DNA of 58,668 bases. Source: Nitrospira sp. CG24A. GTDB taxonomy: Bacteria > Nitrospirota > Nitrospiria > Nitrospirales > Nitrospiraceae. The stretch spans positions 1-58,668 of the forward strand of contig NEWT02000023.1 of the NCBI GenBank assembly GCA_002869925.2, given 5' to 3'. The translations under genes were made by a program, and so were the position numbers. The notes under the pieces were generated by a model, which worked only from the letters and a program-made list of their open reading frames with translations, did no database searches and was not told where the DNA came from. Below, in pieces: positions 7,618-26,000 of this stretch. The number at the start of each line of letters is the position of its first letter. Within the stretch, counting starts at the first letter, position 1.

Positions 7618-7629
7618 GCTCGTGCGCCG

Positions 7630-8337: not shown

Positions 8338-9664
8338 GATCACCTCCTGCGTCGGTGCTGGTGTGATGCAATAGAGCCGGAGCGGCAGGTTGCGGCGCCG
8401 GCGGTTGCCAACGTTCAACCAGATAGGGTTTCATGCGTTCGAACGTGTGGCACAACGCTTCGATCTTCTGCTCTGCTTCCACGGACGTCAAGCCCTGAGT
8501 TGCGTGGACAAACGAGGCGGTCCGACCTAAGTACAGGGGAGTGAGGGCTTTGAGGAGGTGGTCGCGTCGTATGATTCGTTTGCGATGCGCAATCGCCGCA
8601 TCGTAAACGACCTGAACCCACAGTTCATCGGGGATACGACAGTCGGTGTTGGACGTTCCCTGGAGATCGCGGAGTTGCGCGAATGTATCGTCGGCCAGAA
8701 TCTGTCGCCAGATGGGCTCAAGATCGGTGAGGCCTTGTCGATAGTGCAAGACCATCCGTTCCATATTGACATGGACTGGTTCGACCCCCACCTCGTAGGT
8801 AAACCCAAAGAGTGGAACCGGCTGCGATCCTTCCAGCCGAGACCAGAGCACTTCATGTTTTTCCATGAGGGCAAAGAGCGCTCCCATCACCTGCGTCAAC
8901 ATGGCCGACAAGTCGGCTGATGGGTCCTTTGGATTATGGATTTTTGCGCCGAGGAAGCTTTGGCAGATCCGTGCGCCACTGGCAATGGCTTCCGTCGTCA
9001 TCCAGATATCGATACCGAAGCGCGCGACTTCCGATTCCCAGACATGTTGGTCGAGATAGTGGGCCGCGAGCGCTCCGGAAAAACCAAACTCCCCGCCGAT
9101 AGGCTGGCGCACCCGTCGTCCGTAGAGCGCCCTGGTCAGTGGGTAGGCGAGACTGTTTGTGATCGTGCCGTCGTATTTGTGGCGGAGATAATAGGGCGCG
9201 ACGTAGTCGTATCCTTCCTCCAGGATGGGTCGGAGCAAGAGCTCAATCCATTCCGGAGAAATACTGCGGAGGTCCGCATCGACGACTGCACAGGCCCGGG
9301 CATTCAATCGTCGGGCAATCTCAAAGATCGTCCGGAACGCGCTGCCTTTTCCGGGAATCCCATGGTACGGCGTCACGATTCGATGCAGGATACTTTGCTG
9401 GTCGGCAATGAAGAGATGTTCGAAATCGATCGCGGTGCGGGCGACGATGGCCGGCGTCTGATCCGATGAGCCTCCGTCGGAATTGACCAGGACGGCTCGA
9501 CGGCCAGGGAAATGTTTAGCGAGCCCCACGCTGACGGCCCGCACGACATGTGCAACCGTATCCGCGTTGTTATAGCTCGGAATCCCAACAAGCACCTCTG
9601 CAGAGCCAATTTCTTGGATGCGTGCTTCTGTCGGCGGAGTGAGTGGGGTGAGATTCGCGCTCAT
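8330..9664 (-). CDS. Glycosyltransferase, GT-A fold, related to GT81/GT2 glycosylglycerate synthases
   Basis: 444 residues. VLVGIPSYNNADTV (residues 24-37) is the N-terminal nucleotide-binding strand; NSDGGSSD (61-68) follows; GIPGKGSA (103-109), VDADLRS (128-134, the metal-binding D-x-D) and QPIGGEFG (187-194) are arranged as in glucosyl-3-phosphoglycerate synthases. The long C-terminal half is helical. Its ATG overlaps the stop of the GpgS-like gene (ATGA), so translation is coupled. With a GpgS-like enzyme before it and an MPGP-like phosphatase after it, it may add a second sugar, as MggA does in Petrotoga, or be the direct mannosylglycerate-type synthase. Confidence 0.75.
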   Translation of the reverse strand: MSANLTPLTPPTEARIQEIGSAEVLVGIPSYNNADTVAHVVRAVSVGLAKHFPGRRAVLVNSDGGSSDQTPAIVARTAIDFEHLFIADQQSILHRIVTPYHGIPGKGSAFRTIFEIARRLNARACAVVDADLRSISPEWIELLLRPILEEGYDYVAPYYLRHKYDGTITNSLAYPLTRALYGRRVRQPIGGEFGFSGALAAHYLDQHVWESEVARFGIDIWMTTEAIASGARICQSFLGAKIHNPKDPSADLSAMLTQVMGALFALMEKHEVLWSRLEGSQPVPLFGFTYEVGVEPVHVNMERMVLHYRQGLTDLEPIWRQILADDTFAQLRDLQGTSNTDCRIPDELWVQVVYDAAIAHRKRIIRRDHLLKALTPLYLGRTASFVHATQGLTSVEAEQKIEALCHTFERMKPYLVERWQPPAPQPAAPALLHHTSTDAGGDHE

Positions 9665-10905
9665 GAAGGAGTGGCTGCCGGCTCAGTTGTGGGATCCCAG
9701 ACATGATCGGCTTCGACGGCTTCGACCAGGCGATCGAAAATGTCTGGCACGGCATGGGTGACGCGACTCCAGTTGGAAATCATGGGGACACCAAGCGGGT
9801 CCTCGAGAAACCCCTCGGTGGCGAGTTTCATGCCTTTCAAGAACACTTCGACGGCCGTGCGTTCCTGGTGTCGATCGAACGTGAGGCTATTGATGGACGC
9901 ATCGTTTTCGTATCGGCTGATCGCTTCCTGAGCGGCCTGCAAATATGTGGCGCGCAAGGTCTTGAGGATACCGTCAGACAACACGACGCCTTCGCTCGCG
10001 AGATTCCTGAAGAGCGATTTCGTAATGTCGACACACATCTTGAGGAGGCCGGCATCGGGATTGTGGGCTGAGAGTTCCTGGTGTTTGTGGTCATAGGCGT
10101 CCGCAATATCGGCTTGGCAGATGCGGCGTAAGGCACAGTTTCGATAGACTTCCGCGAGAACGCCGATTTCAAGCCCCCAGTCCCCTGGAATCCTATTAGT
10201 CCAAGCCAGGTCCCTCACCATGGCAAACTCACCGGCTAGAGGATAACGAAAGCTGTCGAGAAAGGTCAGGAGTGCGTGAGGTCCCACAAGCTGTTGGAGG
10301 CTTCGGATCATCGGCGTAATAAAGAGGCGCGTTACTCTGCCATTGAGGCGGTCGGTTACTCGGCTGTAATAACCCTTGCAGAACTCATACCCGAGATTGG
10401 GATTGGCGATGGGATAGCAGAGGCGCGCCAGATATTCACGGCTGTAGCTTGTGATGTCACAGTCGTGGAGTGCGATGACTTGGCTGTGATTTCTAGCCAA
10501 TACATAACCGAAGGCGGTCCAGCAACCCCGCCCTTTGCCCTGTAAGCCGATATCGAGGTTGTGATCGACCAGGACCTTGAGGATGGCTTGAATACGCGCA
10601 CCGTCATTCCAGATAAGGCGAACCCGCTGGGGAAGGACAGAAAAGAATTGCTTCGCCAGACGAAATTCTAAGGCCGAAGCTCGATCCAGGGAGATGACGA
10701 TTTCATTGAGATATGACACAGTTTTGAGGGTCTCTACGATGGCTTTCAATGCCGGGCGTCCCAATTCCGAGTAGAGGGAGGGGAGGACCAATGCAATGGG
10801 ATTGACGCGCCCGTAACGTACCAATTCTTGCTCCAGTTGGTTGACATTTGGCTGCCCGAGGCGGTGAAGCACGGTGACCACCCCGTTTTGATAGAAATCT
10901 GACAT
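9661..10905 (-). CDS. gpgS: Glucosyl-3-phosphoglycerate synthase-like glycosyltransferase
   Basis: 414 residues. Motifs in order: IALVLPSLYSE (37-47), IVISLDRA (69-76), LQGKGRGCW (121-129), ALHDCDI (145-151, metal-binding D-x-D), PLAGEFAMV (222-230) and GDWGLEIGVL (241-250). This order and spacing match GT81 GpgS/MpgS-type enzymes, which join NDP-sugar to 3-phosphoglycerate. It is the promoter-proximal gene of the four-gene operon. The exact donor sugar (glucose or mannose) is not determined by what I can see; the symbol is given by closest resemblance. Confidence 0.75.
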   Translation of the reverse strand: MSDFYQNGVVTVLHRLGQPNVNQLEQELVRYGRVNPIALVLPSLYSELGRPALKAIVETLKTVSYLNEIVISLDRASALEFRLAKQFFSVLPQRVRLIWNDGARIQAILKVLVDHNLDIGLQGKGRGCWTAFGYVLARNHSQVIALHDCDITSYSREYLARLCYPIANPNLGYEFCKGYYSRVTDRLNGRVTRLFITPMIRSLQQLVGPHALLTFLDSFRYPLAGEFAMVRDLAWTNRIPGDWGLEIGVLAEVYRNCALRRICQADIADAYDHKHQELSAHNPDAGLLKMCVDITKSLFRNLASEGVVLSDGILKTLRATYLQAAQEAISRYENDASINSLTFDRHQERTAVEVFLKGMKLATEGFLEDPLGVPMISNWSRVTHAVPDIFDRLVEAVEADHVWDPTTEPAATPS

Positions 10906-11170: not shown

Positions 11171-12523
11171 TTAGTCTTTGCCGTATAGACGGAGCTTACG
11201 GAAGAGCGTTTTGCGGTGGATCCCAAGGATGTCAGCTGCCTCGCCGTGGTCCTGATGATGGGCCTCCAGCACCCGCAGAATATAATTCTTTTCCATATCG
11301 TGAAGAGTCTCCCATCCACGAGCTCGGGCTTGGATGTGAACAGGCGCTGTCCGAATCGTTTCAGGAAGATCTTCAGGCGTAATGATGGGATGGGGGGTCA
11401 AGGCAATAGCCCGCTCAATCACATGCTCGAGTTCACGGACATTGCCAGGCCATGCGTAGCGTGTCAGCAAAGGGATGGTGTCCGGTGAGAGCCCGGTGAC
11501 CGGTCTCTCTTTGGTACGCCCGAATTTATCGACGAAGTACCGGCTTAAAAGCGGAATATCGTCAATCCGATCTCGCAAGGGAGGAAGGACAATGGTAATT
11601 ACTTCCAGTCGATAAAAAAGATCCTCTCGAAAGGTCCCGGCTTCGACAAGTGGCTTCAAAGCTTTTTTCGTTGCGGCGATGATTCTGACATCGATGGCGC
11701 GCGGCGTTTCGCTTCCGACGCGCCGGATTTCGCGCTCCTGAATTGCACGCAGCAACTTGCTCTGCATCATGGGAGAGAGGTCTGCGATCTCGTCCAGAAA
11801 GCAGGTGCCGAGATTCGCCTGTTCCAACAACCCTTTTTTCGTTGCGATGGCTCCGGTAAATGCACCACGTTCGTGACCAAAGAGCTCAGACTCAAGGAGC
11901 GTCTCGGCCAACGAGCCCGTATCGATGGCGACGAATGGCCCGCCACTTCTACCGCTGTTGGCATGAATGGCGCGGGCGATCAACTCCTTTCCGGTCCCAC
12001 TTTCTCCCTGGATGAGCACCGTGCTGTCCGTCTCCGCGACCCGGGCAATCATTTTATAGACTTCAACCATTCCGCCACTGCTGCCCACGAGGTTGTCAAA
12101 CCGGTATCGATCGCGCAATTGTCCCCGTAAGGACCTATTTTCCCGTACGAGCTTGGTATGTTCGAGCGCGCGCCGGACCACCAACCGAATGTCCTCGACG
12201 ACAAACGGTTTGCTGAGATAGTCGAAGGCTCCGGCTTTAATGGCATCCACAGCAGTCTTGAGCGATCCGTAGGCCGTCAACAACACCACCGGAATATCCG
12301 GCTCCTTTTCGCGCACGGCAGCCAGTAATGCGAGCCCGTCCATCCCTGGCATATGAATGTCGGTGATGACGAGTTCAGGCTGCCATTGCTCAAGTCGCCG
12401 CAGCGCGGTCTCCGCGTCCTCGGCCGTTTCGACCTCGAACCCTTCTTTGGCCACGATCTCGCGCATCAAGGCTAGCGTCTCGGCGTCGTCATCCACGACC
12501 ATGACCCGGGATGGTCGCAGCAT
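11171..12523 (-). CDS. NtrC-family sigma-54-dependent response regulator
   Basis: 450 residues in three domains. The N-terminal receiver has Asp55 in VITDIHMPGMDGL and the conserved KPF. The central AAA+ domain has Walker A GESGTGKE, the GAFTGA loop that contacts sigma-54 (ERGAFTGAI), and Walker B FLDEIADL. The C-terminal Fis-type helix-turn-helix is AADILGIHRKTLFRKLR. All activating residues are intact, so it should be a functional enhancer-binding protein. Its ATG overlaps the stop of the kinase gene (TGATG), indicating a co-transcribed two-component pair. Probable targets are the GACAAGWTGTC pairs at 14.2 and 23.6 kb. Confidence 0.92.
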   Translation of the reverse strand: MLRPSRVMVVDDDAETLALMREIVAKEGFEVETAEDAETALRRLEQWQPELVITDIHMPGMDGLALLAAVREKEPDIPVVLLTAYGSLKTAVDAIKAGAFDYLSKPFVVEDIRLVVRRALEHTKLVRENRSLRGQLRDRYRFDNLVGSSGGMVEVYKMIARVAETDSTVLIQGESGTGKELIARAIHANSGRSGGPFVAIDTGSLAETLLESELFGHERGAFTGAIATKKGLLEQANLGTCFLDEIADLSPMMQSKLLRAIQEREIRRVGSETPRAIDVRIIAATKKALKPLVEAGTFREDLFYRLEVITIVLPPLRDRIDDIPLLSRYFVDKFGRTKERPVTGLSPDTIPLLTRYAWPGNVRELEHVIERAIALTPHPIITPEDLPETIRTAPVHIQARARGWETLHDMEKNYILRVLEAHHQDHGEAADILGIHRKTLFRKLRLYGKD

Positions 12524-14151
12524 CAGCGCGCTCCTCCGTCGGCTGGAAGCTCAATCGTGAATCGCGAACCTTTTTGCAACTCGCTCTCTACCTTGATGTC
12601 TCCGCCGTGTGCCCGTACGGTTTCCAGTGCGCTCGCCAACCCCAATCCCGTGCCACGTCCTGCTCGCTTTGTTGTAAAGAATGGCTGAAAGATTTGTACA
12701 AGCTGTGCCGCGCTCATTCCGCAGCCTGTATCGATCAGTTCCACCGCGACCCATGGGCGATGAGCCGGCTGTCCGAGCGCAGCGTGAGGAGAGACTCGCA
12801 CAACCAGTGTTCCTCCGTCAGGCATCGCGTCGAGTGCGTTTTCGATCAAACTGTGGAACACCTCATGGAGCTGCTGGGAATCGGCCTCAACTTTCTCGAT
12901 CTGCTGGCTCCATTCTGTCTCCAGCGTAATCTTCTGACGATCGAATTCCGGCTGGAAGAGTGCGAGACATTCCGCGACACAGGCATTGAGATCGATAGGA
13001 GATCGCACCGGATCCGGTCTCCGGGCATACAAGAGGAGGTCTTGAATGATTTTTGACGTTCGTTCGATCTGGGCCTCCACGGTCTGTAACCGTCGTCGAG
13101 ACTCTGTACTCAGAGTCTGGTCCTCAGCCAGGAGTTGAATATGGCCCGACAGCGCAGTCAATGGTGTGCCGATTTTATGTGCCACGGTCGCAGCGACCTG
13201 TCCTATAGCCGAGAGGCGTTGTGCGCGTGCAGCATCGCGCTGTGCCGCCGAAAGTAATTCGTTCGTCTGGGCCAACGCCCGATTTTTCTCCAACACTTCA
13301 GTGGTTGCCTCGATGACTTTCTGCTGAAGACTGTCGTTCATCTCGCGTAGGGATTCCGTCAATTGTGCATTGTCTTGAGTCGCTTCACGGATCTTCCTCA
13401 CCATGTCATTGAATGTGCCGGCCAGTTCTCCGAGTTCATCCTGTTCCTCAACAGGGACGACCGACGTCATGGTTCCCTGAGAAACCGATTCAACGGCAGT
13501 GAGCAGTCGTTTTACAGGGCGATGCACCTTAAAGTACAGAAACAGATTGATGGCGACGACGATCGCCAGTCCCGTCTGCAATCGCCTTGTTCTGGAGGCT
13601 TGCAGGATGGACTCTAAGGCTTCATCCATTTGCCTGGTAGAGAACTCGGCATAGGTGGCTCCTACCACGACATTCTTTAAGACGATCGGGGCAGCCAGGA
13701 AGACACGATGGGTATTTTTCCTGTCCGCATAATCGATCAGGGGCCGCTGTTCCTCGCGCACGCGTTTAATAAGGTCAAATGCCCTCTCTTGCCTCGGGTG
13801 CGAGAGGAGCAGCAATTCCGTGGGACCTGCGCTGGTGATCGGGATAGGATTTTCTCCCAGTTCCGCTGGAAATTCGTACATCACAATGTTGAGAAGATCA
13901 GGCAGATTGGAAAAGATCTTCTCCAATTCTTTGGTTCGCGCCTCCCGGTTTGATAGCTGAGCACGACTGGTGACGTTCTGGTCGACGGAATATCCGACAG
14001 CCAGCGCCGCCGCACGAACATTGTCTTCCACGATGTGCTGGATCGAGCGGGCCTCGAGCCAGTCCGTCGCTCCTGCGGAGACGCCGACGATAAAAATGAC
14101 GATCAGCGTCACCTTGATCTGAAGGCTGAGTCGGTGCCACCAGTTCAGCAT
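12523..14151 (-). CDS. Membrane sensor histidine kinase, partner of the adjacent NtrC-type regulator
   Basis: 542 residues from ATG 14151; an upstream in-frame ATG at 14241 would add 30 residues but lies within regulatory sequence, so I prefer the shorter form. Order: TM1 (VTLIVIFIVGVSAGATDW), ~150-residue extracytoplasmic sensor region of Cache-like layout, TM2 (LAIVVAINLFLYF), HAMP with a coiled coil, HisKA with the H-box GQVAATVAHKIGTPLTAL, and HATPase_c (N-box ENALDAMPDGG, G1 DTGCGM, G2 GRGTGLGLA). The stimulus is unknown; the sensor region has no cysteines or haem motif that I notice. Confidence 0.88.
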   Translation of the reverse strand: MLNWWHRLSLQIKVTLIVIFIVGVSAGATDWLEARSIQHIVEDNVRAAALAVGYSVDQNVTSRAQLSNREARTKELEKIFSNLPDLLNIVMYEFPAELGENPIPITSAGPTELLLLSHPRQERAFDLIKRVREEQRPLIDYADRKNTHRVFLAAPIVLKNVVVGATYAEFSTRQMDEALESILQASRTRRLQTGLAIVVAINLFLYFKVHRPVKRLLTAVESVSQGTMTSVVPVEEQDELGELAGTFNDMVRKIREATQDNAQLTESLREMNDSLQQKVIEATTEVLEKNRALAQTNELLSAAQRDAARAQRLSAIGQVAATVAHKIGTPLTALSGHIQLLAEDQTLSTESRRRLQTVEAQIERTSKIIQDLLLYARRPDPVRSPIDLNACVAECLALFQPEFDRQKITLETEWSQQIEKVEADSQQLHEVFHSLIENALDAMPDGGTLVVRVSPHAALGQPAHRPWVAVELIDTGCGMSAAQLVQIFQPFFTTKRAGRGTGLGLASALETVRAHGGDIKVESELQKGSRFTIELPADGGAR

Positions 14152-14196: not shown

Positions 14197-14228
14197 AGAC
14201 AAGATGTCTGCGGCGGGACAAGTTGTCT
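14197..14228. promoter_or_regulatory. Tandem palindromic enhancer sites (UAS pair 1)
   Basis: Two 13-bp palindromes, AGACAAGATGTCT (14197-14209) and GGACAAGTTGTCT (14216-14228), lie 19 bases apart, about two helical turns on one face. They are 110-140 bases upstream of the sigma-54 element at 14338 and just upstream of the divergent kinase/regulator operon. This is the usual placement of NtrC-type enhancers. A second, diverged pair is at 23618-23648. Confidence 0.6.
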
Positions 14229-14337: not shown

Positions 14338-14353
14338 TGGCACCAGGTTTGCT
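14338..14353 (+). promoter_or_regulatory. Sigma-54 promoter (-24/-12)
   Basis: TGGCACCAGGTTTGCT matches the consensus TGGCAYRNNNNTTGCW at every fixed position except the R. Predicted start is about 14364, some 40 bases before the receiver gene. This is the best sigma-54 element I found in the window. Confidence 0.7.
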
Positions 14354-14404: not shown

Positions 14405-14809
14405 GTGATGGAACGAGTTGTTGTGGTCGAGGCCGATGTTGTGTTGGGCACTGTCCTTGCCGAAGTGCTACGGCACAGCGGGTATGAGGTGACGTTCGTC
14501 AGGACATTGATAGGCGAAATCGAGCGCGTCGATTCTGTGAGTGCGGTGATTCTTGATATCGACACAACGACTGCGGAAAGAGAGCTCGCCTGGCTCAGCT
14601 TGTTGGAACCCTGCAGCGACTCGCTGCCGATCATTCTGCTGGGCGTGCAAGTGTCCGAAGACCTGGTTCAACGTCTCAGATCGCATTCCCTGCCCCTGCA
14701 GAACAGGAATGTGGTCTGTGTGCAGAAGCCGTTTCGGAATGAAGAGTTACTTGCCGCCGTTCGACAGGCGCAAGAAGGCTGTGTATCCGGACAGGTAACC
14801 GGAATATAA
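14405..14809 (+). CDS. Stand-alone, divergent receiver-like protein
   Basis: 134 residues from GTG 14405 (ATG 14408 is an alternative), with AGGAG upstream. The CheY fold is recognisable: RVVVVEADVVLGTVLAEVL at the start (the acidic pair is reduced to E-A-D), VILDIDTTT with the candidate phosphoacceptor Asp, and CVQKPFRNEELLAAV with the conserved Lys-Pro. The conserved Thr/Ser strand reads LPIILLGVQ, so the switch residue is missing. There is no output domain. It is the first gene after the sigma-54 promoter, so it may modulate the adjacent kinase or a partner as a phosphate sink or adaptor. Confidence 0.7.
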   Translation: MMERVVVVEADVVLGTVLAEVLRHSGYEVTFVRTLIGEIERVDSVSAVILDIDTTTAERELAWLSLLEPCSDSLPIILLGVQVSEDLVQRLRSHSLPLQNRNVVCVQKPFRNEELLAAVRQAQEGCVSGQVTGI

Positions 14810-14856: not shown

Positions 14857-15078
14857 ATGCGATGCGAACGGTGTGCTGGGTTAGTTGTGGCTGAACATGC
14901 CAGTGTAGGTGGGACATCCATCGGATGCGGGGCCTCTGTTGAATGGCGATGTGTCAATTGTGGTGCGATGGGCGTCTCCGCGCCGGTAAGCGGGCATCCT
15001 GTCGCTCAAGCCATGGCAGGAAAAGAAAAAATCGGCGTGCAACGTCGAGCCTTGAACACGGAACCTCGTCGGTCTTAA
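14857..15078 (+). CDS. Small zinc-ribbon protein
   Basis: 73 residues from ATG 14857, with AAAGGAGG seven bases upstream. MRCERCAGL and WRCVNCGAMG are two CxxC knuckles about 30 residues apart, preceding a basic tail. It is the same type as the proteins at 35633-35833 (NCERCGGLKILEH ... LRCINCG) and, more distantly, 23908-24156. Likely a metal-binding regulator or adaptor; no function is known to me. Confidence 0.65.
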   Translation: MRCERCAGLVVAEHASVGGTSIGCGASVEWRCVNCGAMGVSAPVSGHPVAQAMAGKEKIGVQRRALNTEPRRS

Positions 15079-15189
15079 CCGCCACCTGAGAATATCAGGA
15101 TAGTGAGTCATGAATATGTATCTAGAATGGGTCAGAGAGTCGTCACGCTCCGATCTGCAGACTACAATAATGATGAAAGGAAGGTTCCA

Positions 15190-16281
15190 ATGAGAATTGC
15201 TCAGGTTGCCCCCTTATGGGAAAGTGTTCCGCCGAAACTCTATGGAGGAACGGAACGAGTCGTGTCCTACCTCACTGAAGAACTTGTCCGGCTCGGTCAT
15301 GATGTGACCTTGTTCGCGAGCGGAGACTCGACCACGGCGGCTCGTCTAGAAGCGATCTGTAGTCACGCGCTGCGTCTAAACGAAGGGATCTTTAACCGCG
15401 ACGCACCGATGACGATGCTGATGGAGCAGGCGCTGGGAAAAAGCGGCGACTTCGACGTGATACATTCTCACCTCGATTTCCTAGGATTTCCTCTCGGGAG
15501 GCGGAATCCGATCCCGATGGTCACCACGTTCCATGGTCGGCTCGACTTGCCTGAGCTGCAACCGGTGTTTCGTGAGTATGCGGAGATGCCGATGGTGTCG
15601 ATTTCAAATGCCCAACGAAAACCAGTCTCCTGGACGAATTGGCAGGCAACGGTCTATCACGGTTTACCAAAGGATCTGTATAGACTGAACCCGAACCCTG
15701 GCGGCTATCTGGCATTTTTGGGACGCATTGCCCCTGAAAAGCGACCGGATCATGCGATCGAGATTGCCAAGCGAGTAGGGATTCCGTTGAAGATTGCTGC
15801 AAAGGTCGATCCGGCGGATCAGAAATACTTTCAAGCCGAAATCGAGCCGTTGCTTTCTCATCCATTAATTGAGTTTCTCGGTGAGATTACAGACGCAGAA
15901 AAGAACGAATTCCTCGGAAATGCGATGGCGCTGGTGTGTCCCTACGACTGGCCTGAACCGTTTGGCCTCGTGTTGATTGAAGCGCTAGCCTGCGGAACGC
16001 CGGTGCTGGCCTATCGGCGTGGATCCATTCCTGAAATCATTGATAACGGCGAGACAGGATTCGTCTGCGAGGGGCTCGACGAGATGACTGCGGCCGTCCA
16101 AGGTATTGCTGGTATAGATCGTCAACGATGTCGGCATGCCTTCGATCAGCGGTTCAGCGTTGAACGAATGGCACAGGACTATCTCCGGGTGTATGAACAG
16201 CTGTCGCTTGGCAGCACAGGTGAACGGGAGACAGAGGGCGCCGGTTTTGCCTCCTGGCCCACGTTCTCCAGCAATGCGTAA
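15190..16281 (+). CDS. Family 4 glycosyltransferase
   Basis: 363 residues from ATG 15190, chosen for GGAAGG upstream; the frame is open further 5'. N-terminal Rossmann domain: MRIAQVAPLWESVPPKLYGG, TERVVSYLTEELVRLGHDVT, LFASGDS. C-terminal domain: LGRIAPEKRPDHAIEIAKR and the E-x7-E motif region EPFGLVLIEALACGTPVLAY, RGSIPEI. This is a retaining GT-B enzyme using an NDP-sugar. Its acceptor is unknown; the neighbourhood (debranching-type glucosidase, OtsA) suggests an alpha-glucan or a storage/protective saccharide. Confidence 0.85.
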   Translation: MRIAQVAPLWESVPPKLYGGTERVVSYLTEELVRLGHDVTLFASGDSTTAARLEAICSHALRLNEGIFNRDAPMTMLMEQALGKSGDFDVIHSHLDFLGFPLGRRNPIPMVTTFHGRLDLPELQPVFREYAEMPMVSISNAQRKPVSWTNWQATVYHGLPKDLYRLNPNPGGYLAFLGRIAPEKRPDHAIEIAKRVGIPLKIAAKVDPADQKYFQAEIEPLLSHPLIEFLGEITDAEKNEFLGNAMALVCPYDWPEPFGLVLIEALACGTPVLAYRRGSIPEIIDNGETGFVCEGLDEMTAAVQGIAGIDRQRCRHAFDQRFSVERMAQDYLRVYEQLSLGSTGERETEGAGFASWPTFSSNA

Positions 16282-16480
16282 AAGTGGAATCAGTCTTCTG
16301 GTGGAGAAGCCATGAAGGAGCTTAGTCATGACGCTGAGGGACGGGGCTCGATCATTCCTGTTCAGTGTTCGACAAACGACTGGAAGTTCTCCCTTCAAAC
16401 TGTCTCCTTGACAGGGAAATGTATGGGATCACGGTGAGAGCTCTTCGTGTTTGTACGCGTGGCATCAGTCAGGGGGTTGA

Positions 16481-17926
16481 GTGAGAATTCTCCACGTGAG
16501 TACGCATGACATCAAAGGAGGGGCTGCTCGATCCAGCTATCGCCTGCACCAGGCGATGCAACGCCTGGGCCATGAGTCGACTATGCTGGTCGGCACTCGC
16601 CACAGCAACGACTCAGCTGTGACCGCCTTCGTGCCGGCAAGGGATCTTATGACTCGTCTGCGACGTCGCGTTCGACGGAACCGGATTGATCAAGACTTCG
16701 CGGCTCATGGAGCGAGCCGACCTACAGGTCTGGAACCATTTGGTGATGATCGAAGCATGCACGCGATCGATCTCATGAAGCACGCCCCTCCATGTGATGT
16801 GATCACGCTGCAGTGGGTTGCGGGTTTTATCGACTATCAAGCGTTCTTCAGCGCCCGACAATTAGAGGGTACCCCTGTCGTTTGGCAATTGCACGACATG
16901 AATATCCTGACCGGCGGGTGCCACTATGATGAAGAATGCGGTCGGCATCGAACTCAATGCGGGGCGTGCCCGCAACTGGGCTCGACCGATCCCGAGGACC
17001 TCTCACGACAGATTTGGAAGCGAAAGCAGGCGGTGTTTGGCGCGCTGGAGGCGAAGCAGCTTCATATCGTCGCGCCCAGTCGCTGGATGCTTGAATTGGT
17101 CAAAGAGAGTCCTCTCCTGTCCAGGTTTCCCGCGACGCTGATTCCCTACGGTGTCGATGTGGAGGAGTTTGCTCCACGCGACCGGCGTTTCGCGCGGGAG
17201 ATGCTTGATATTCCTCAGGGAGCACAGGTCGTCATGTTCGTATCGGACAATCTGACGAACCGGCGGAAGGGCGGTTCCTACCTTTCGTCTGCGCTGTCAG
17301 AGTTGCCGCAGGCCCACAATCTCTTTCTGATTTCTGTTGGTAGCGGAAACCCGCCGGACACTGGTGCCATTCCATGTTTGCATATGGGCTACGTCACGGA
17401 TAACCGATGGCTGTCGATGATCTATAGTGCGGCTGACCTATTCGTGATCCCATCTATGCAGGATAACTTGCCGAATACAGTCTTGGAGTCGATGGCATGT
17501 GGAACGCCTGTCGTGGGGTTCGATGTCGGAGGTATTCCGGACATGGTTCGGCCCGGAAGGACCGGCCACCTTGTTCCTGTTGGGGACTCAGTCGCATTAC
17601 ACCATGCGATGACGCAATTGCTTAACGCCCCAAGTGTACTCCGACAGATGGGAGACGAGTGCCGCAAGGTGGCAATGGAAGAGTATTCGTATGAATCGTC
17701 AGCCCTGCGGCATGCCACACTATACGAATCACTTGTTCGTCAAGCACCCCGTGGAATGGAAGGGTGTTTCCCTTCAAGCGCAGATGGAGACTCAAGTGAA
17801 ATTCCTGCTGTCGACCAGTCTTCCCTTCGCGACTACGAGTGGCAGTTACATGGCGATTCTGGGAACTTGGGCGGAAGCCGGTCGTCTCGGAATGTTGACA
17901 TTCGAAAGTTCAGGCAGGCGACGTAG
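16481..17926 (+). CDS. Family 4 glycosyltransferase
   Basis: 481 residues from GTG 16481. MRILHVSTHDIKGGAARSSY is the N-terminal glycine-rich loop; VWQLHDMNILTGGCHYDE and CGRHRTQCGACPQLG form a Cys-rich segment typical of one GT4 subgroup of polysaccharide transferases; the C-terminal domain has IPSMQDNLPNTVLESMACGT and GGIPDMV. About 60 extra C-terminal residues look disordered. Separated from the previous transferase by 199 bases without a promoter I can defend, so it may be co-transcribed. Confidence 0.83.
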   Translation: MRILHVSTHDIKGGAARSSYRLHQAMQRLGHESTMLVGTRHSNDSAVTAFVPARDLMTRLRRRVRRNRIDQDFAAHGASRPTGLEPFGDDRSMHAIDLMKHAPPCDVITLQWVAGFIDYQAFFSARQLEGTPVVWQLHDMNILTGGCHYDEECGRHRTQCGACPQLGSTDPEDLSRQIWKRKQAVFGALEAKQLHIVAPSRWMLELVKESPLLSRFPATLIPYGVDVEEFAPRDRRFAREMLDIPQGAQVVMFVSDNLTNRRKGGSYLSSALSELPQAHNLFLISVGSGNPPDTGAIPCLHMGYVTDNRWLSMIYSAADLFVIPSMQDNLPNTVLESMACGTPVVGFDVGGIPDMVRPGRTGHLVPVGDSVALHHAMTQLLNAPSVLRQMGDECRKVAMEEYSYESSALRHATLYESLVRQAPRGMEGCFPSSADGDSSEIPAVDQSSLRDYEWQLHGDSGNLGGSRSSRNVDIRKFRQAT

Positions 17927-17961
17927 CTCCGGTTCAGAAAAATAGAGGAGGAGGTTTTGAA

Positions 17962-19245
17962 GTGAGTGAACATGTCGAGGCAGTGAAAGGTCGGGCAGGA
18001 TCCGGATGGGAATTGTTGAAGACAAGGAATTTTGCCCTTCTATTTTCAGGCCAGGTCGTATCCCAGATTGGCGACGGCATGAATAAGGTGGCGCTGTTGT
18101 GGTTCGTGTATGAACTCACAGGGTCGGCCTTCAAGATGACATTGATCGGATTACTCCAGACGATTCCCCCGTTGGTGTTTAGCCCGCTTATTGGTGTCTA
18201 TCTTGATCGGATGAAGAAAAAGCCGGTGATGATCTGGGTGGATCTCATCCGAACTGGGTCGGTGATGCTCATTCCCTTACTCTACGCCTTTGATGCCTTG
18301 ACGCTTGAACGGCTCTACGTGCTCGTGTTCTTGACGTCGATCGTCTCCACCATTTTTGGTCCCGCGTTGTCATCCGCTGTTCCACTTCTCGTTTCTCGCG
18401 CTCAATTGACCGGCGCCAATGCGTTAATTCAAAGCACAACAAACATAGGCCTCCTGATCGGACCTGCCGTCAGCGGGGTGGGGATTGCCATGATGGGAGC
18501 CCAAAATGTGTTGTACCTTGATGCGGCCACGTTCTTGGTATCGGCATTGTGCCTCATGCCGATTCGCCTGCGTGAGACACTGCAATCGCGTGTGGGTTCG
18601 GCCGATAGAGCCACGGTCTTCCAAGATATGATGGTCGGATTTCGATTTATTTTCGTCCAGCATCGAACCGTACTGCTCCTCATGTTTACCGCTGCCCTCT
18701 ACAGTTTGGGCGTGAGCGCGTTTATGCTCTTGCTGCCAGTGTTTGCCACGCAGCTATTCGATGCGGGTTCCGTCGAACTCGGGTGGCTGTGGTCATCGCT
18801 TGGGATAGGCATGCTGGCTGCGTCCGTCTGGCTGGGTTGGATCAATCAGGGCGATCTCCAAAACCGCCTGCGATTGGTTGCCGCAGCTCTGGCCGTTGGC
18901 GCCATCGCGGTGTGCACGCTGGGGATGTTCCAGGCGCCGGTTATGGCCGCTGTTCTTATCATCATATTCGGCGGCAGCACCGCCATCTTCACGCCGGTTG
19001 TGTGGGCGATGTTGCAAGAATTGACGCCCGAACCTCTCTTAGGCCGTGTGTTTACCACCTTCAGCGCCGGTGCCATGGCTGCCGCCATGGTCGGGATGGC
19101 TGGATTCGGTTGGGTGGCAGATGCCATCGGACCTGCAACGAGTCTTGTGGGTATCGGGGTGCTGTTGTTGGGCACCGCGACCGTTGCAGCGGCGTTTAGT
19201 CGACGACGCCACGGCATGACGGCTCCCGACCTTATTCCGGCATAA
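17962..19245 (+). CDS. MFS transporter (H+ antiporter-type, DHA3-like)
   Basis: 427 residues from GTG 17962 with GAGGAGG upstream. Twelve hydrophobic segments; FALLFSGQVVSQIGDGMNKV in helix 1 and LIGVYLDRMKKKPVMIWVD as the loop 2-3 motif A region are typical of the DHA3-type major facilitator group (MefA-like or tetracycline/macrolide-like). It is a close paralogue of the MFS protein at 20096-21394: both share ALIQSTT...GPAVSGVGIA and ...WAMLQELTPE/WGVVQELTP signatures. Substrate unknown. Confidence 0.88.
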   Translation: MSEHVEAVKGRAGSGWELLKTRNFALLFSGQVVSQIGDGMNKVALLWFVYELTGSAFKMTLIGLLQTIPPLVFSPLIGVYLDRMKKKPVMIWVDLIRTGSVMLIPLLYAFDALTLERLYVLVFLTSIVSTIFGPALSSAVPLLVSRAQLTGANALIQSTTNIGLLIGPAVSGVGIAMMGAQNVLYLDAATFLVSALCLMPIRLRETLQSRVGSADRATVFQDMMVGFRFIFVQHRTVLLLMFTAALYSLGVSAFMLLLPVFATQLFDAGSVELGWLWSSLGIGMLAASVWLGWINQGDLQNRLRLVAAALAVGAIAVCTLGMFQAPVMAAVLIIIFGGSTAIFTPVVWAMLQELTPEPLLGRVFTTFSAGAMAAAMVGMAGFGWVADAIGPATSLVGIGVLLLGTATVAAAFSRRRHGMTAPDLIPA

Positions 19246-19283
19246 ATCGGTTCCATCGTGTTTCATCGCTTAGGCCGATTTCG

Positions 19284-20099
19284 ATGGAAATGAACCTGAG
19301 AGATGTGAGATGGTCCCAGCTCATGGACATTGTATTGAGACAAGGGGCGGTGCTCCCGGCACTGTGCCTGTCGACCCTGCTCATCGCCCAGTTGACGAAT
19401 CCGGTGCTCGCGCAGTGTGAGCAGCGTTCGATCCTACTAGCTCAATCATCTGCCGATCATAGTAAAGGCGTGGAATCCAAATCTCCTGCCAAGGGACAAA
19501 AGGAACTGCCTTCCACTGAACCGGCTACTCAGGAACCAAAACAGGCGCAGCCGAATACGCCGACAATCAAGAGTGATGAAACAAAAACAAAAAAGGAGAG
19601 CGGAGAAGAGGGGGGAGAGAAGGGGAAAGAGAGCACAGGGAGAAAAACTGTTTCTTCGCTGATTCTCACGGTCAAGCTCGCGTTGCTGGGAGATCCACGC
19701 CTCTTTCCATACGAGATCGAAGTGGAGGCCGGATCGGAGGAGGTGACGCTTATGGGGAAAGTGTCCACCGACGCGGAAAAGGCCGCGGCGACGGAAATTG
19801 CGAGCATGGTGGCCACTGTGAAATCCGTGTCGAATAAGTTAGAGGTGGTCAAAGAACTGCCGGAGATCATCGCGCACAAACATGACGACATCATTACACG
19901 CCATGTCAAAGAGCGGTTTGCCAAGAGTGCCACTGTGACCGCAGCCAACTTCGACGTCAAGACGGAACAGGGAGTCGTCTCACTCAGCGGTACCGTACGA
20001 TTCCAAGTTATCATATTCGAAGCAGCAGAAGCGGCCAGGGAGGTTCTGGGGGTGAAAGCAGTGAAGACGGATAAGGTCAAGATCGAGAGTGAGGGGTGA
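19284..20099 (+). CDS. Exported protein with two BON domains
   Basis: 271 residues. An N-terminal signal peptide (VLPALCLSTLLIAQLTNPVLA, then Q) is followed by a low-complexity Lys/Glu/Pro linker (about residues 60-125) and two BON domains: LALLGDPRLFPYEIEVEAG ... EVTLMGKVSTDAEKAAATEI and ITRHVKERFAKSATVTAANF ... GVVSLSGTVRF. BON domains bind phospholipid or attach to membranes, and tandem BON proteins such as OsmY and DolP are periplasmic stress proteins. Its stop overlaps the GTG of the next MFS gene (GTGA), so the two are translationally coupled. Confidence 0.85.
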   Translation: MEMNLRDVRWSQLMDIVLRQGAVLPALCLSTLLIAQLTNPVLAQCEQRSILLAQSSADHSKGVESKSPAKGQKELPSTEPATQEPKQAQPNTPTIKSDETKTKKESGEEGGEKGKESTGRKTVSSLILTVKLALLGDPRLFPYEIEVEAGSEEVTLMGKVSTDAEKAAATEIASMVATVKSVSNKLEVVKELPEIIAHKHDDIITRHVKERFAKSATVTAANFDVKTEQGVVSLSGTVRFQVIIFEAAEAAREVLGVKAVKTDKVKIESEG

Positions 20100-21394
20100 A
20101 ACCTTGGGCGATCAGTCCCACGAACCGCACCTCTGCGCACGACGGCACGGAGGAGCAGGTTCCCGCCGAGACCCGCCGTCCCCTGCTCCTTACTCGAAAT
20201 TTTGGTTTGATATGGCTCAGTCAGTTGGTGTCCCAAGTCGGCGACGGCGTCTCGAACCTTGCCCTTCTCTGGTTTGTGTATTCGATTACCGGCTCGCCGG
20301 TGAAAACGACCATCATCGGACTCATTCATACGATTCCGCCGATCGTGCTCGGTCCCTTCATCGGCGTGTATGTCGACCGGTTGCCAAAAAAATTCTTCCT
20401 CATTGGATCGAACGTATTCCGGGCTGTGCTGATGGGCATCATTCCCTGCGCGGTGTCAACCGATACCTTCACCGTCAATCTCTTGTATGGCCTTGTCTTC
20501 CTCGATGCCATGGCCATGGCGATGTTCAGCCCGGCGCTGACGTCGTCGGTGCCGATGATCGTTCCTCGCGCGCAATTTACAGCCGCGAATGCACTGATTC
20601 AGAGTACGACCAGTCTGGGAATCATTTTCGGTCCGGCAGTGAGCGGCGTGGGGATCGCATTGTTCGGCTCGCAGGAAGTACTGTGTCTGAATGGGGCCAC
20701 GTATTTCGTCGCAGCATTATGCCTTGGGATGGTACGGCTGGGAGTTGCCCAGCCATCTGCTGTAGAACCAGAGACGACCGGTGGGTCAGCGTGGCAAGAC
20801 TTCAAAGAGGGCCTGGCCTTTGTTGCGACCAAGCAACGGGTTATTCTGCTGCTGATTTTGACTGCGGGATGTTATGGATTCGGCGCCAGCGCGCTCTCGA
20901 CGTTATTTCCTGTTTTCGCGAGAAAGCTGTTAGGACTGGGGCCGGTCGAGGTAGGCTACCTGTGGTCGTCTCTGGGAATCGGATTGCTCGTCATGTCGGT
21001 CGTGCTGCTGTGGTGTACGGAACGGATTCTCGCCGACCGAGTCAATATCATCTTTTGGGCGAGTGCGGTGAGTGGGCTGGCAATCGTGGCGCTCGTCTGG
21101 ATGAAAGACATTTATGTCGTCAGCATTCTCATGATCGTGATCGGAGGCGGGATGGGAGCCTTTACTCCCATCGCCTGGGGTGTAGTGCAAGAGCTGACGC
21201 CTCGCATGATGGTGGGGCGCGTTCTCGGGCTCTATGGTACAGGTGCGATGACAGCCGCTATCAGTGGAATCAGCGTGTTTGGGCAAATTACAGAGCGGTT
21301 TGGTGAATCGACGGGGATAGCAGGCATTGGCGCGACCTTTCTGCTGACAGCCTTCTTCGGAAGCTGGTTGAGCCGATCAATCCGAAACCGATGA
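20096..21394 (+). CDS. MFS transporter, paralogue of the upstream one
   Basis: 432 residues starting at GTG 20096, which overlaps the BON gene stop. Layout and motifs mirror the 17962-19245 protein: FGLIWLSQLVSQVGDGVSNL, PFIGVYVDRLPKKFFLIGSN, AANALIQSTTSLGIIFGPAV and ELTPRMMVGRVLGLYGTGAM. Twelve predicted helices. The duplication with an exported BON protein between the copies is unusual and suggests they act together. Ten bases separate its stop from the next ATG. Confidence 0.88.
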   Translation: MKPWAISPTNRTSAHDGTEEQVPAETRRPLLLTRNFGLIWLSQLVSQVGDGVSNLALLWFVYSITGSPVKTTIIGLIHTIPPIVLGPFIGVYVDRLPKKFFLIGSNVFRAVLMGIIPCAVSTDTFTVNLLYGLVFLDAMAMAMFSPALTSSVPMIVPRAQFTAANALIQSTTSLGIIFGPAVSGVGIALFGSQEVLCLNGATYFVAALCLGMVRLGVAQPSAVEPETTGGSAWQDFKEGLAFVATKQRVILLLILTAGCYGFGASALSTLFPVFARKLLGLGPVEVGYLWSSLGIGLLVMSVVLLWCTERILADRVNIIFWASAVSGLAIVALVWMKDIYVVSILMIVIGGGMGAFTPIAWGVVQELTPRMMVGRVLGLYGTGAMTAAISGISVFGQITERFGESTGIAGIGATFLLTAFFGSWLSRSIRNR

Positions 21395-21403
21395 GAGGCT
21401 CTT

Positions 21404-23572
21404 ATGAAAACTATGTATCGTCGAAACGATCAATGTAGCATTGTCATCACGTCCTCCTCATTGACCGATGACCACATTGAAGTTCTGAAGCAGGGCGACA
21501 CGTTCGGTGTGTTCGACGGAAACGGCGATATCCTTTCCATCAGAACAGGTTCGCAAGGCCTCTACCACGGAGGCACTCGCTTTCTGTCGCGGTTCGAGTT
21601 GGCCATCAATGGAGAGCGGCCATTGCTGCTCAGCTCGACAGTCAAAGAAGAGGACGTCTTGCTGAGCGTCGATCTGACGAATCCCACCCTGACCCAGGAG
21701 GGGCAGGGTGAGATCTTGGGCGGTGTGCTCCACCTGTCTCGGAATCGGTTCTTGTGGGAAGGGCACTGTTTCGAACGTCTTCGAATCCACAATTATAGTC
21801 TCCGCCCCATTCCGGTTCGGCTCTCTTTCTCAGTGGAGGCTGATTTTGCCGATCTGTTTGAGGTCCGTGGGACAAAACGAAACCGGCGAGGCCGCCGTTT
21901 GGAAGCCGTCACCTTTAAAGATGGAATGTCCCTGGGATATGAGGGGTTAGATCGTGTAGACCGATGGGTCACCATCCGCTGTGTACCGGCTCCGACTTCG
22001 GTCCTCCCCGGTGAGATCCACTGTGACACGCTCTTGCCGGCAGGGGAGGTGGCGCAGTGGGATCTCACAATATCTTGCGACATCGACAAACCACTGACCT
22101 GTGATCTCTCGTATGATGACACATTCGACATCGTAGAGCGCGCGCGCCACGCCGAGAAAGCCGATGATTGCCTTATCGTGACGTCGAATGAGCAATTCAA
22201 CGCATGGCTGAGCCGCTCGTTTGCCGACCTCCACATGATGGTTGCCGACACGCCAGACGGCCCCTATCCCTACGCCGGTGTCCCCTGGTTCAGCACCCCA
22301 TTTGGGCGCGACGGCCTCATTACCGCATTTGAATTTCTCTGGGTCAATCCAAGCATTGCCCGTGGTGTGTTAGCCTATCTGGCGGCGACTCAGGCGAGAG
22401 AGGTGGTTCCAGAGCAGGATGCAGAGATCGGGAAAATTTTGCATGAAACCCGCAAGGGAGAGATGGCGGCGCTCAACGAAATTCCGTATGGCCGCTACTA
22501 CGGCAGCGTCGATTCGACACCGTTGTTCGTCATGCTGGCCGGAGCGTATTATGAACGGACCGGCGATCGGGCGTTCATCAGGCACATCTGGCCGAATATC
22601 GAACTCGCATTACAGTGGATTGATCGTGATGGCGATCTCGATGGCGATGGGTTCGTGGAGTACAGCCGCCGGTCGAGGGGGGGGCTGATCCATCAAGGGT
22701 GGAAAGATTCACGGGATGCGGTGTTTCACGCAGATGGCAGCTCGGCGGAAGGACCCATTGCGCTCTGTGAAGTGCAGGGGTATGTGTTTGCCGCCAAGCG
22801 GCGCGCAGCTGAATTAGCTTCGATGCTGGGCTATACGGACCAAGCCCGCCGTCTCCTCAAAGAGGCGGCCAGGCTCCGTGCTCAGTTCGAGCGAAGCTTC
22901 TGGTGCAACGATCTCTCGTCCTATGCCTTGGCCTTGGACGGGCTCAAGCAGCCCTGTCGAGTCAAGACATCGAATGCCGGCCACAGCCTCTGGACGGGGA
23001 TCGCCACTCGACCGCATGGTATGAGAACGGCCAAGACCTTAATGACCGAGGCCTGTTTCAACGGATGGGGTGTCCGAACCGTCGCCGCGACGGAGATCCG
23101 CTTCAATCCTATGTCGTACCACAACGGATCTGTCTGGCCGCACGATAATGCCCTCATCGCCGCGGGCATGGCTTCCTATGGATTCAAACAAGGCGCATTG
23201 AAGATTCTTTCCGGTCTCTTCGACTCCAGCCGATTTCTCGATTTACATCGGCTACCTGAGCTGTTGTGCGGGTTCTCGCGCCGGCCCGGTGAGGGTCCGA
23301 CGCTGTACCCCGTGGCCTGTAGTCCTCAGACGTGGTCTTCGGTGGCACTGTTTCTGCTGCTTCAATCCTGTCTTGGATTGCGAATTGACGCTCCGCTGGC
23401 CAGACTGTCGTTTTCACAACCGGTCTTGCCGCCTTTCCTGAAGCATATTGAGATAAAAAATCTCACGATTGGAGACGCCACAGTGGATCTCTCACTTGAA
23501 CGTCAGGCGGAAGATGTTCGTGTGAATATACTGCGGCGCGAAGGTCGAGTCGAAGTCATCACCACGAAGTAA
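21404..23572 (+). CDS. Glycogen-debranching-type glucosidase (GDE N-terminal plus GDE_C catalytic domain)
   Basis: 722 residues. The N-terminal ~230 residues match the beta-sandwich domain found in bacterial amylo-alpha-1,6-glucosidase-like proteins ([31 protein letters not shown]). The C-terminal (alpha/alpha)6 domain shows [46 protein letters not shown] and [19 protein letters not shown], the usual active-site blocks. Members of this group act on alpha-glucans or disaccharides; the true substrate is unassigned. The gene sits in a run of sugar-transfer genes, 10 bases after the second MFS gene. Confidence 0.85.
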
Positions 23573-23617: not shown

Positions 23618-23648
23618 AGACATGTTGTCCCTGATGGACAAGATGTTC
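23618..23648. promoter_or_regulatory. Tandem palindromic enhancer sites (UAS pair 2)
   Basis: AGACATGTTGTCC (23618-23630) and GGACAAGATGTTC (23636-23648), 18 bases apart, resemble the pair at 14197-14228 (about 11 of 13 positions each, allowing W). They are about 190 bases upstream of a -24/-12-like element. Confidence 0.5.
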
Positions 23649-23830
23649 CTTCCACAGAGTCTCCTTGTATAGCGGGAACTTACGTATAGCCTGTCCTCAG
23701 TTGCATCCAACTAGTCCCCTCGGACGTCAATGCGTATAACCGAATACTGGACTGCGGTCATGAATCTACTTGCCTCTAGTCGTTGAAAGGATTGAGTGTT
23801 ATCCGATGCGAGAATGTCGATGCGATGGAA

Positions 23831-23846
23831 CGGTCTGAGTCTTGCA
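23831..23846 (+). promoter_or_regulatory. Sigma-54-like -24/-12 element
   Basis: CGGTCTGAGTCTTGCA keeps GG at -24 and a full TTGCA at -12 with correct spacing but lacks the TGGCA form. It lies 62 bases before the zinc-ribbon gene. Supported mainly by the upstream palindrome pair. Confidence 0.4.
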
Positions 23847-23907: not shown

Positions 23908-24156
23908 ATGAAAGAGACTCAACGTGTCCCGTCAGTGATGTTTCGCAATATCAAAAGGAATCAGAATATTAAAGGAATGCCGGTGTTGCGCGATGTGCAA
24001 GGCCCTCGCTGTGCGTATTGTGGGAGCTTGCGTTATTCCCTCGTCTTTCGCGTGAGCGAGGACGGCCGGAACGGAGTACTCGTTGGTCAATGCAGTAATT
24101 GCCGCAAACCTCGAGAGTTGACAGTGGGCGACATTGAAGGGGGGTGCCATGCCTGA
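23908..24156 (+). CDS. Small zinc-ribbon protein
   Basis: 82 residues from ATG 23908, preceded by AGAGAGGGG. RCAYCGSLRYSLVFRV and GQCSNCRKPREL form two CxxC pairs about 30 residues apart in the middle of the protein, a zinc-ribbon layout. The N-terminus is basic (NIKRNQNIKG). It is related in type, though not closely in sequence, to the proteins at 14857-15078 and 35633-35833. Role unknown. Confidence 0.65.
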   Translation: MKETQRVPSVMFRNIKRNQNIKGMPVLRDVQGPRCAYCGSLRYSLVFRVSEDGRNGVLVGQCSNCRKPRELTVGDIEGGCHA

Positions 24157-24539
24157 ATGGGAACGTCATACGCTAAAAAGAACGAGTGGAAAAGGCACGC
24201 TCCACACCTACCATGCACAGGGGTAAACCCAGCTTCTCGGGCGGCAAGTTGCCTCAGCGTGTGGAAGTTGGCAACGACTCAGACGATCTGAGGAATTCGT
24301 TGCGGGGCGAGACACATGCCATGGTGCGGTCTCTCACTGTGCCATGTAAGCCGCTGTGGGCGACCGTCTGTAATAAGTGCATGCTTCACCATACACGCGC
24401 TGTAGCCATAAATGTCGGTTGGAGAGAAAGCAGAAGAATAACCGCATGGATGTGTCAATAATTCCGAACCTCTCTTGCCAGGCATGAAAATTGGTCTGTC
24501 ATGCCGGACAGCATGAGCGAACGAGGAGACGCTCGAGCC
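24157..24539. other. Region between zinc-ribbon gene and otsA
   Basis: A 91-codon open frame (24186-24461) has no homology I can recognise, no convincing ribosome site and irregular composition; I do not call it. GGCAAGTTGCC at 24243-24253 is a palindrome resembling the GACAAGTTGTC sites. Confidence 0.4.
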
Positions 24540-26000
24540 ATGGATCGACAACGACTGATCGTCGTATCAAATCGTCAGCCCTACGAACATCGATGGGAGA
24601 GCGATCAACTTGTTTGCGCGCGGACCGATGGAGGGTTGACAGCGGCTCTGGATCCAGTGCTCCGCCGTCATGGCGGCACCTGGGTCGCCTGGGGAAGCGG
24701 GTCAGCCGATCAGAATGTCGTAGGCCCGGATATGTGCGTTGAGGTGCCTCCAGAGTCACCAGCCTATCGACTGCATCGTGTCTGGCTGACTCCAGATGAG
24801 ATCAAGGGCGGCTACCTCGGCTATGCCAACCAGGTTTTGTGGCCGCTGTGTCATATCACGTTAGACCGCATTCACTATCTGAAAGCGTTTTGGCCGGCCT
24901 ACCGATCAGAGATGCATCGTTTTGCCAATGCGGTGCTGGAGGAGCTGGATCGAGAGCCGCGGCTGGTGTGGATTCATGATTTTCACCTGGCGCTTCTTCC
25001 CGCGCTGATCAAGGCTGAGCGACCGACCGCGCCGGTATCGGTGTTTTGGCACATCCCATGGCCTAGTCCCGATGTGTGGCGCATTCTTCCGGAACGCCGT
25101 GAAATGCTGCTCGGATTGCTGGCGTCCGATGTCATAGTGTTCCAGACCTCCAGCCATGCGGAGGCGTTTTTCAATTGCACGCATACGTTCCTGGGCGCCA
25201 TCATTCCCTCCTCTAGAGATCGGGTGTTATACAACGGTCATGAAACCAGGGTGAGCGTTCGCCCGATCAGTGTGGACTATCGGGTGATCTCCGAGCATGC
25301 GGTCAGCTCCTCCGTGGAACAGGCCGAATCAGTTCTACGGCAGCAGTTAGGTTTTCGTGCGGGGGTTCGATTGGGCCTTGGTGTTGATCGGTTGGATTAC
25401 ACGAAGGGTTTATTAAAACGATTGTGGGCGCTCGATGAGTTCTTTACGCAGTTTCCTCGGTATCGAGGAAAGTTTACATTTCTCCAAATCGCCATCCCCA
25501 CACGCACCGAGATTGGTACATACCAGCTCTACGGTGATTTGATTCGAGAGACGGTAAACGACATTAACCAGCGACACAGTGCGTGCATCAAGGACATACC
25601 CAATGAGGGAAACGACTGGATCCCTATTCTCTTACAAGAAGGGCGGATAGGGTTCGACGATCTGGTTGCTTTGTATCGAATGGCTGACTTTGCATTGGTC
25701 AGTTCTGTCAATGATGGAATGAATCTTGTGGCGAAGGAATATGTCGCGGCGCAAGTTTGTGAAACCGGAGTGTTATTGGTGAGTCAAATGGCTGGAGCGT
25801 CAGAAGAATTGCCAGGTGCGAGCGTGATCAATCCGTATGAAATCGAAGGCCTAGCCGAAACCATCAAAGGCGCTTTAGAGATGCCGCTTGATGAGCGTCG
25901 ACGAAGAATGCGGCGAATGCGATCGTATCTCGCCGCACACGATATCCATGCGTGGGTGGACGGATGTCTTCAGGATGCCCTGGTGGGGGCACAGACTTGA
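24540..26000 (+). CDS. otsA: Alpha,alpha-trehalose-6-phosphate synthase (GT20)
   Basis: 486 residues from ATG 24540 (an upstream ATG at 24501 would add 13). LIVVSNRQPYEHRW and GGLTAAL begin the N-terminal domain, GGTWVAWGSG, GYLGYANQVLWPLCH and WIHDFHLALLP follow, and the C-terminal domain has LGVDRLDYTKGLLKRLWA (the synthase signature), PTRTEIGTYQL and NDGMNLVAKEYVA. It transfers glucose from a nucleotide sugar to glucose-6-phosphate. There is no phosphatase domain and no otsB nearby, so trehalose-6-phosphate would have to be dephosphorylated elsewhere. Confidence 0.92.
   Translation: MDRQRLIVVSNRQPYEHRWESDQLVCARTDGGLTAALDPVLRRHGGTWVAWGSGSADQNVVGPDMCVEVPPESPAYRLHRVWLTPDEIKGGYLGYANQVLWPLCHITLDRIHYLKAFWPAYRSEMHRFANAVLEELDREPRLVWIHDFHLALLPALIKAERPTAPVSVFWHIPWPSPDVWRILPERREMLLGLLASDVIVFQTSSHAEAFFNCTHTFLGAIIPSSRDRVLYNGHETRVSVRPISVDYRVISEHAVSSSVEQAESVLRQQLGFRAGVRLGLGVDRLDYTKGLLKRLWALDEFFTQFPRYRGKFTFLQIAIPTRTEIGTYQLYGDLIRETVNDINQRHSACIKDIPNEGNDWIPILLQEGRIGFDDLVALYRMADFALVSSVNDGMNLVAKEYVAAQVCETGVLLVSQMAGASEELPGASVINPYEIEGLAETIKGALEMPLDERRRRMRRMRSYLAAHDIHAWVDGCLQDALVGAQT

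Follow-up and report, generated by a model that had tools for sequence, protein, structure and literature searches.

Two pairs of palindromes, 9.4 kb apart in the genome of Nitrospira sp. CG24A, raise the question of which protein recognizes them and whether trehalose synthesis is among the functions that it controls. Nitrospira and its relatives are major nitrite oxidizers (some also oxidize ammonia) that are difficult to culture and, for the most part, lack genetic systems, and their sensing of osmotic, drying, and starvation stress is largely inferred. The DNA analyzed here, referred to as the window, is a stretch of 58,668 nucleotides that lies in contig C16 of a 3.36-Mb genome, the nearest named relatives of which are the Nitrospira MAGs RSF11 and RSF6. 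A preliminary description of the window had noted two pairs of similar structure, the second of them upstream of a -24/-12-like element, a zinc-ribbon gene, and otsA, and had suggested that both are served by one regulator. Our comparison of genomes makes it very probable that the pair is the enhancer (upstream activating sequence) of the NtrC-family response regulator encoded at 11171 to 12523 and that it drives the sigma-54 promoters of a stress and compatible-solute regulon.

Paired sites and their putative sigma-54 promoters

Pair 2 consists of two GACA-N3-TGTC palindromes, AGACATGTTGTCC at 23618 to 23630 and GGACAAGATGTTC at 23636 to 23648, which have no strand and are both conserved in a footprint of eight genomes. 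Their starts are 18 bases apart, as in the preliminary description, leaving gaps of 5 bases between the 13-mers and 7 between the 11-bp cores. Pair 1 (AGACAAGATGTCT and GGACAAGTTGTCT, about 14197 to 14228, no strand), which was delimited by pattern search and conservation, has starts 19 bases apart. The single site could be refined to an 11-bp palindrome, RGACA-R-N-Y-TGTCY, which is present twice per pair with starts 18 to 20 bp apart; the core-to-core gap among fully matching pairs is 8 in 26 cases, 7 in 7 cases, and 9 in 4 cases.

Genome-wide counts were obtained by pattern search, with the reversed pattern as the control. Lone sites are unremarkable and near the chance level (GACANNNTGTC is found at 47 places versus 35 for the reversed pattern); the pairing is the unusual feature. 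Genome-wide, the pattern GACANNNTGTY-N6-9-GACANNNTGTY has two matches and no more, pair 1 (here 14198 to 14227) and pair 2, which both fall in the window and close to the regulator gene; the reversed pattern has none. Allowing 2 mismatches at a spacing of 7 or 8 adds one match in the genome, and the control also gives one. Across the family, the pair pattern is found at about 55 places in 29 of 175 genomes and the reversed pattern in a single genome. That one window should hold two random palindrome pairs, a reading that the near-chance frequency of lone sites might seem to favor, is refuted by these control counts, and its probability is practically nil. The likeness of the two pairs and the improbability of their arising by chance, both claimed at the outset, are confirmed.

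The sites of pair 2 start 45 bases past the stop codon of the debranching-type gene at 23572, and a scan for terminator-like elements picks 23625 to 23641, so that they could be read as the hairpin that ends transcription of this gene. However, any palindrome pair folds in this way by construction, and pair 1 scans alike yet sits upstream of genes. The two palindromes, moreover, show conservation and recur at the promoters of unrelated genes. The terminator reading was dropped on these grounds, and it is highly improbable.

Downstream of pair 2, at a distance of 183 bp (about 190 had been estimated), lies the putative sigma-54 type -24/-12 element CGGTCTGAGTCTTGCA, at 23831 to 23846 on the plus strand, which has the correct GG-to-GC spacing and a core conserved in the eight genomes. 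By generic -24/-12 score it ranks just 20th in the window. The top-scoring element in the window is that of pair 1, TGGCACCAGGTTTGCT (14338 to 14353, plus strand), which is conserved in three relatives, as are pair 1 and TGGCAYSAGGTTTGCT at a spacing of 110 bp. The element of pair 2 is convincing because it is conserved and recurrent, and not because of its own score. It belongs to a recurring class, GGTCT-N5-TTGC, whose density beside pairs is 28 times that in the rest of the same loci, and GGCAT-N5-TTGC is likewise denser; spacer controls for the TTGC forms beside pairs gave no matches for N4 and two for N6.

Nonredundant pairs in the family number 47, and 41 of them are intergenic. A sigma-54-like element, scored at 8 bits or more with weights that we approximated from the published consensus, lies no farther than 300 bp from 43 of the 47, versus 50 of the 145 intergenic places that served as controls (34%; Mann-Whitney P = 1.6e-12); related genomes are counted more than once in these tallies and in the density counts above. 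The GG and GC doublets at fixed spacing and the TTGC at -12 are accompanied by an rpoN gene in the genome (PF04552 at G000:C6; E = 8e-57). The enrichment of sigma-54 promoters next to the sites that the preliminary description had predicted for a genome-wide scan is thus borne out across the family, and the contrary outcome, sites with no link to -24/-12 elements, did not occur.

Pair 2, its distance of 182 to 183 bp from the promoter, and CGGTCTGAGTCTTGCA itself are all retained in RSF11, RSF6, and G017. With the addition of G018, G080, G079, and G011, which completes the footprint of eight genomes, mean identity is down to 58%, and the invariant columns are mainly both sites and GG-T-T...TTGC. 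G018 retains both pairs, with two mismatches in each.

Between pair 2 and the promoter, the block CCTTGTATAGCGGGAACTT (23666 to 23690) is strictly conserved in the four close genomes. An ECF-like -35 word, GGAACTT, at about 23677 was rejected as a promoter candidate; it is kept in these four genomes and absent from G018, G080, G079, and G011. In G079, an identical 29-bp pair is found twice, 16 kb apart (L098 and L099; G079:C1:3254579 and 3270496), which suggests a duplicated promoter.

The regulator and its tie to the pairs

Pair 1 lies between the minus-strand kinase and regulator genes and a plus-strand gene cluster, and the likely start of the kinase gene, an ATG near 14151, places it within a divergent promoter region. 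The regulator gene (11171 to 12523, minus strand) encodes a complete NtrC-type protein, with a receiver, a Sigma54_activat AAA+ domain with GAFTGA, and a Fis-type HTH (LGIHRKTLFRKLR), and we propose this protein as the binder of the pairs. The partner histidine kinase (12523 to 14151, minus strand) is a membrane protein with HAMP, HisKA, and HATPase domains. We also looked near pair 1 for a sigma-54 site on the minus strand that could serve the kinase operon, but the top score fell inside the kinase gene, and the candidate was rejected.

An ortholog of the regulator is present in 46 of the 175 family genomes, a pair in 29, and both in 26 (Fisher P = 1.8e-15, shared ancestry being ignored). The exceptions among the pair-bearing genomes are G011, a fragmented assembly that is 79% complete, and two genomes with a longer inverted repeat; some regulator-bearing genomes are without a perfect pair. 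A near-pair (at most 2 mismatches) adjoins the regulator gene at 38 of 43 orthologous loci, and four permuted motifs gave 0, 1, 0, and 0. The near-pair may be divergent as in the window, may lie around the regulator stop codon before a receiver-domain gene, or may lie about 1.04 kb downstream. The five regulator loci without an adjoining near-pair are those of G163, G084, G060, and G118 and the second copy in G079. This co-occurrence supports the earlier proposal that the same regulator acts on both pairs.

The apparent pairs of G053 and G112 (L130 and L131; GACAATATGTCATATCTGACATATTGTC type) were rejected because they belong to an inverted repeat of greater length and occur in genomes that lack the regulator, and repeats of this type are probably a different element. 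The second regulator copy of G079 (L139) has 76% identity and is followed, at a distance of about 600 bp, by a DUF5752-like gene.

If the pair were bound instead by another regulator, either an NtrC-type paralog or an ordinary palindrome-binding repressor, the tie to the gene at 11171 to 12523 would reflect shared ancestry only. The genome does encode several NtrC-type paralogs, and the co-occurrence test takes no account of phylogeny. However, the near-pairs adjoin the loci of this one regulator in several different arrangements, whereas paralogs are present in 32 of 32 genomes of the genus without tracking the pair. The recognition helix LGIHRKTLxRK is common to the orthologs examined, and two paralogs from the CG24A genome have different helices (LGIDRRTLYRM and LGIDRKTLYRK). 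Binding by another regulator is thus improbable. Outside the family, the tie between regulator and pair weakens: in the neighboring family, perfect pairs accompany only one of five regulator-like relatives (57 to 60% identity), and among the other pair-bearing genomes most have no regulator match at the threshold, so that replication there is mixed.

The case for the regulator at 11171 to 12523 is one of comparative genomics, which establishes, at the level of sequence, the pair, the promoter element, the co-occurrence of regulator and site, and the conservation of the recognition helix. From these we infer binding, phosphorylation, looping, activation as the direction of control, otsA cotranscription, and the nature of the inducing signal. 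Under osmotic, drying, or starvation stress, the kinase would phosphorylate the regulator, which would then bind the adjacent GACA-RNY-TGTC palindromes (centers 18 to 19 bp apart) as neighboring dimers. The bound dimers would assemble an AAA+ ring that loops to the sigma-54 polymerase at -24/-12, across 183 bp for pair 2 and 110 bp for pair 1, and that opens the promoter using ATP via the GAFTGA loop. The promoter of pair 1 would drive the cluster of receiver, zinc-ribbon, glycosyltransferase, MFS, and debranching-type genes, and that of pair 2 would drive the zinc-ribbon gene and probably otsA, such that the two recognizable pair promoters in the genome may bracket one cluster. In the family as a whole, the same regulator and site would control a broader range of genes for compatible solutes, glycans, and general stress.

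Genes behind the pairs and the place of trehalose

The first gene behind pair 1 (14405 to 14809, plus strand) encodes a receiver-like single-domain protein, as judged from weak OmpR/DivK receiver matches and from orthologs. It is followed by the presumed cluster at 14857 to 23572 (plus strand), in which Pfam matches and synteny point to a zinc ribbon, two glycosyltransferases, two MFS transporters, a BON protein, and a glycogen-debranching-like glycoside hydrolase. The product of the first gene appears to be a degenerate receiver-like protein and has no Pfam match; in many relatives, the gene that comes after the regulator and its pair encodes a canonical single-domain receiver. A receiver gene next to the regulator and pair suggests a phosphorelay or sink partner.

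Behind pair 2, the expected order of a zinc-ribbon gene and then otsA was found, with open reading frames at 23908 to 24156 and 24501 to 26000, both on the plus strand. The first encodes a small zinc-ribbon-like protein with CxxC motifs and no NCBIfam match, and it is the conserved gene directly behind the pair. The second encodes a GT20 trehalose-6-phosphate synthase-like protein (Pfam Glyco_transf_20, E = 5e-113) whose best PDB matches are trehalose-6-phosphate synthases and which scores 396 against a cutoff of 565 for TIGR02400.

The proposal that trehalose synthesis is under the same regulator stands in part. It is favored by the gene order in the window, by G080, which has the pair, the zinc ribbon, and otsA in that same order, and by G020, in which a pair precedes DUF5752, TreT, and OtsA genes. 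In contrast, RSF11 (L004) and G018 (L083) keep the promoter and the zinc-ribbon gene but have no otsA behind them, and in RSF6 (L005:17823-18320) an internal deletion of otsA has left only residues 1 to 69 and 401 to 499. Judged by these loci, the consistent direct target of the pair 2 promoter is the zinc-ribbon gene, and trehalose synthesis is variable within an otherwise conserved locus.

These losses from behind a conserved promoter, together with the 345-bp gap between the two genes (24156 to 24501), would also fit a promoter that serves the zinc-ribbon gene alone, with otsA expressed separately and trehalose outside the regulator in Nitrospira sp. CG24A. However, a scan of the plus strand from 24156 to 24501 found no terminator-like or sigma-70-like site, and the arrangements in G080 and G020 also speak against such a separation. 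Because no terminator-like site was found on this strand, read-through into otsA is plausible, and we favor cotranscription of otsA with the zinc-ribbon gene, as inferred from this layout; separate expression is the less likely arrangement but has an appreciable probability.

Elsewhere in the family, simple ORF calling placed behind the pairs genes for OtsA, for DUF5752 with TreT and OtsA, for an isoamylase-type debranching enzyme, and for a GH15/trehalase-like protein. Behind or beside pairs are also several glycosyltransferases, including orthologs of window gene 15103, as well as glucose-6-phosphate dehydrogenase (G6PDH), Ku, universal stress protein (Usp), DUF326 proteins, polyketide-cyclase-like proteins, PRC-barrel, and baeRF. 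A fusion of S30AE and cold shock domains (S30AE-CSD) is found on the opposite side of one pair. No pair was found at the alphaproteobacterial loci that carry a relative of gene 15103 (L010 to L018). As part of the joint explanation with the regulator and its promoters, the pair-linked genes probably represent a compatible-solute and general-stress regulon, a reading based on the family names of the downstream genes.

Known switches and the proposed stress response

Textbook accounts cover tandem palindromic enhancers, NtrC-type regulators, and -24/-12 promoters. The CG24A regulator is like AtoC, NtrC, ZraR, GlrR, and the PEP-CTERM response regulator in its receiver, AAA+ domain with GAFTGA, and Fis-type HTH, and like NtrC-family activators in that its presumed -24/-12 promoters are preceded by tandem palindromic enhancers. 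However, it differs from the named activators in its own site, GACA-N3-TGTC, and in its different target genes, and it falls under every listed NCBIfam equivalog cutoff (AtoC, 482 against 714; NtrC, 440 against 559; ZraR, 416 against 760; PEP-CTERM regulator, 382 against 503). The RpoS, SigB, and PhyR-EcfG systems have targets of kinds similar to those behind the pairs (trehalose, Ku, universal stress proteins, and glycan enzymes). Unlike in those systems, sigma-54 type promoters are combined here with a predicted phospho-activated enhancer-binding protein as the switch.

The nearest described function, compared by description only, is that of Desulfovibrio vulgaris DVU3305, which has been called a general stress responsive, sigma-54-type response regulator (PMC3333781). 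Its targets include Usp-domain and stress genes, and orthologs have been reported in Thermodesulfovibrio yellowstonii (PMC3333781, PMC4641369). The CG24A regulator shares with it the sigma-54-type response regulator architecture, and the predicted targets in the family likewise include Usp and stress genes. However, published accounts give DVU3305 a GAFSGA loop and associate it with a Lon-protease receiver (PMC3333781, PMC4641369), whereas the CG24A regulator has GAFTGA and no Lon-protease receiver was seen adjoining it. The GACA-N3-TGTC motif is not printed in the main text of the D. vulgaris regulator papers, and a literature search on the motif letters and on Nitrospira sigma-54 stress regulons found no description of the site or regulon. 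The kind of switch is already known; this well-supported member of it, with its particular site, regulator, and predicted regulon, is without description in the searchable literature.

Together, the regulator, its site, the promoter class, and the candidate targets make stress sensing in these bacteria testable by in vitro binding and RNA-seq alone. They also suggest that sigma-54, whose more familiar roles are in nitrogen, motility, and exterior functions, is able to run a stress-protection regulon. More tentatively, the kinase and regulator of the Nitrospiraceae might be the master switch of a general stress and compatible-solute response run by sigma-54, standing in for RpoS, SigB, or PhyR-EcfG, with a regulon of one locus in CG24A and of many loci in other species; we regard this as possible but doubtful.

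Downstream of the regulator, the minus strand of the window (6784 to 10905) encodes two GpgS-like glucosyltransferases in tandem, together with a mechanosensitive-channel-type protein and a HAD hydrolase. This is a probable glucosylglycerate cluster, which fits osmotic adaptation.
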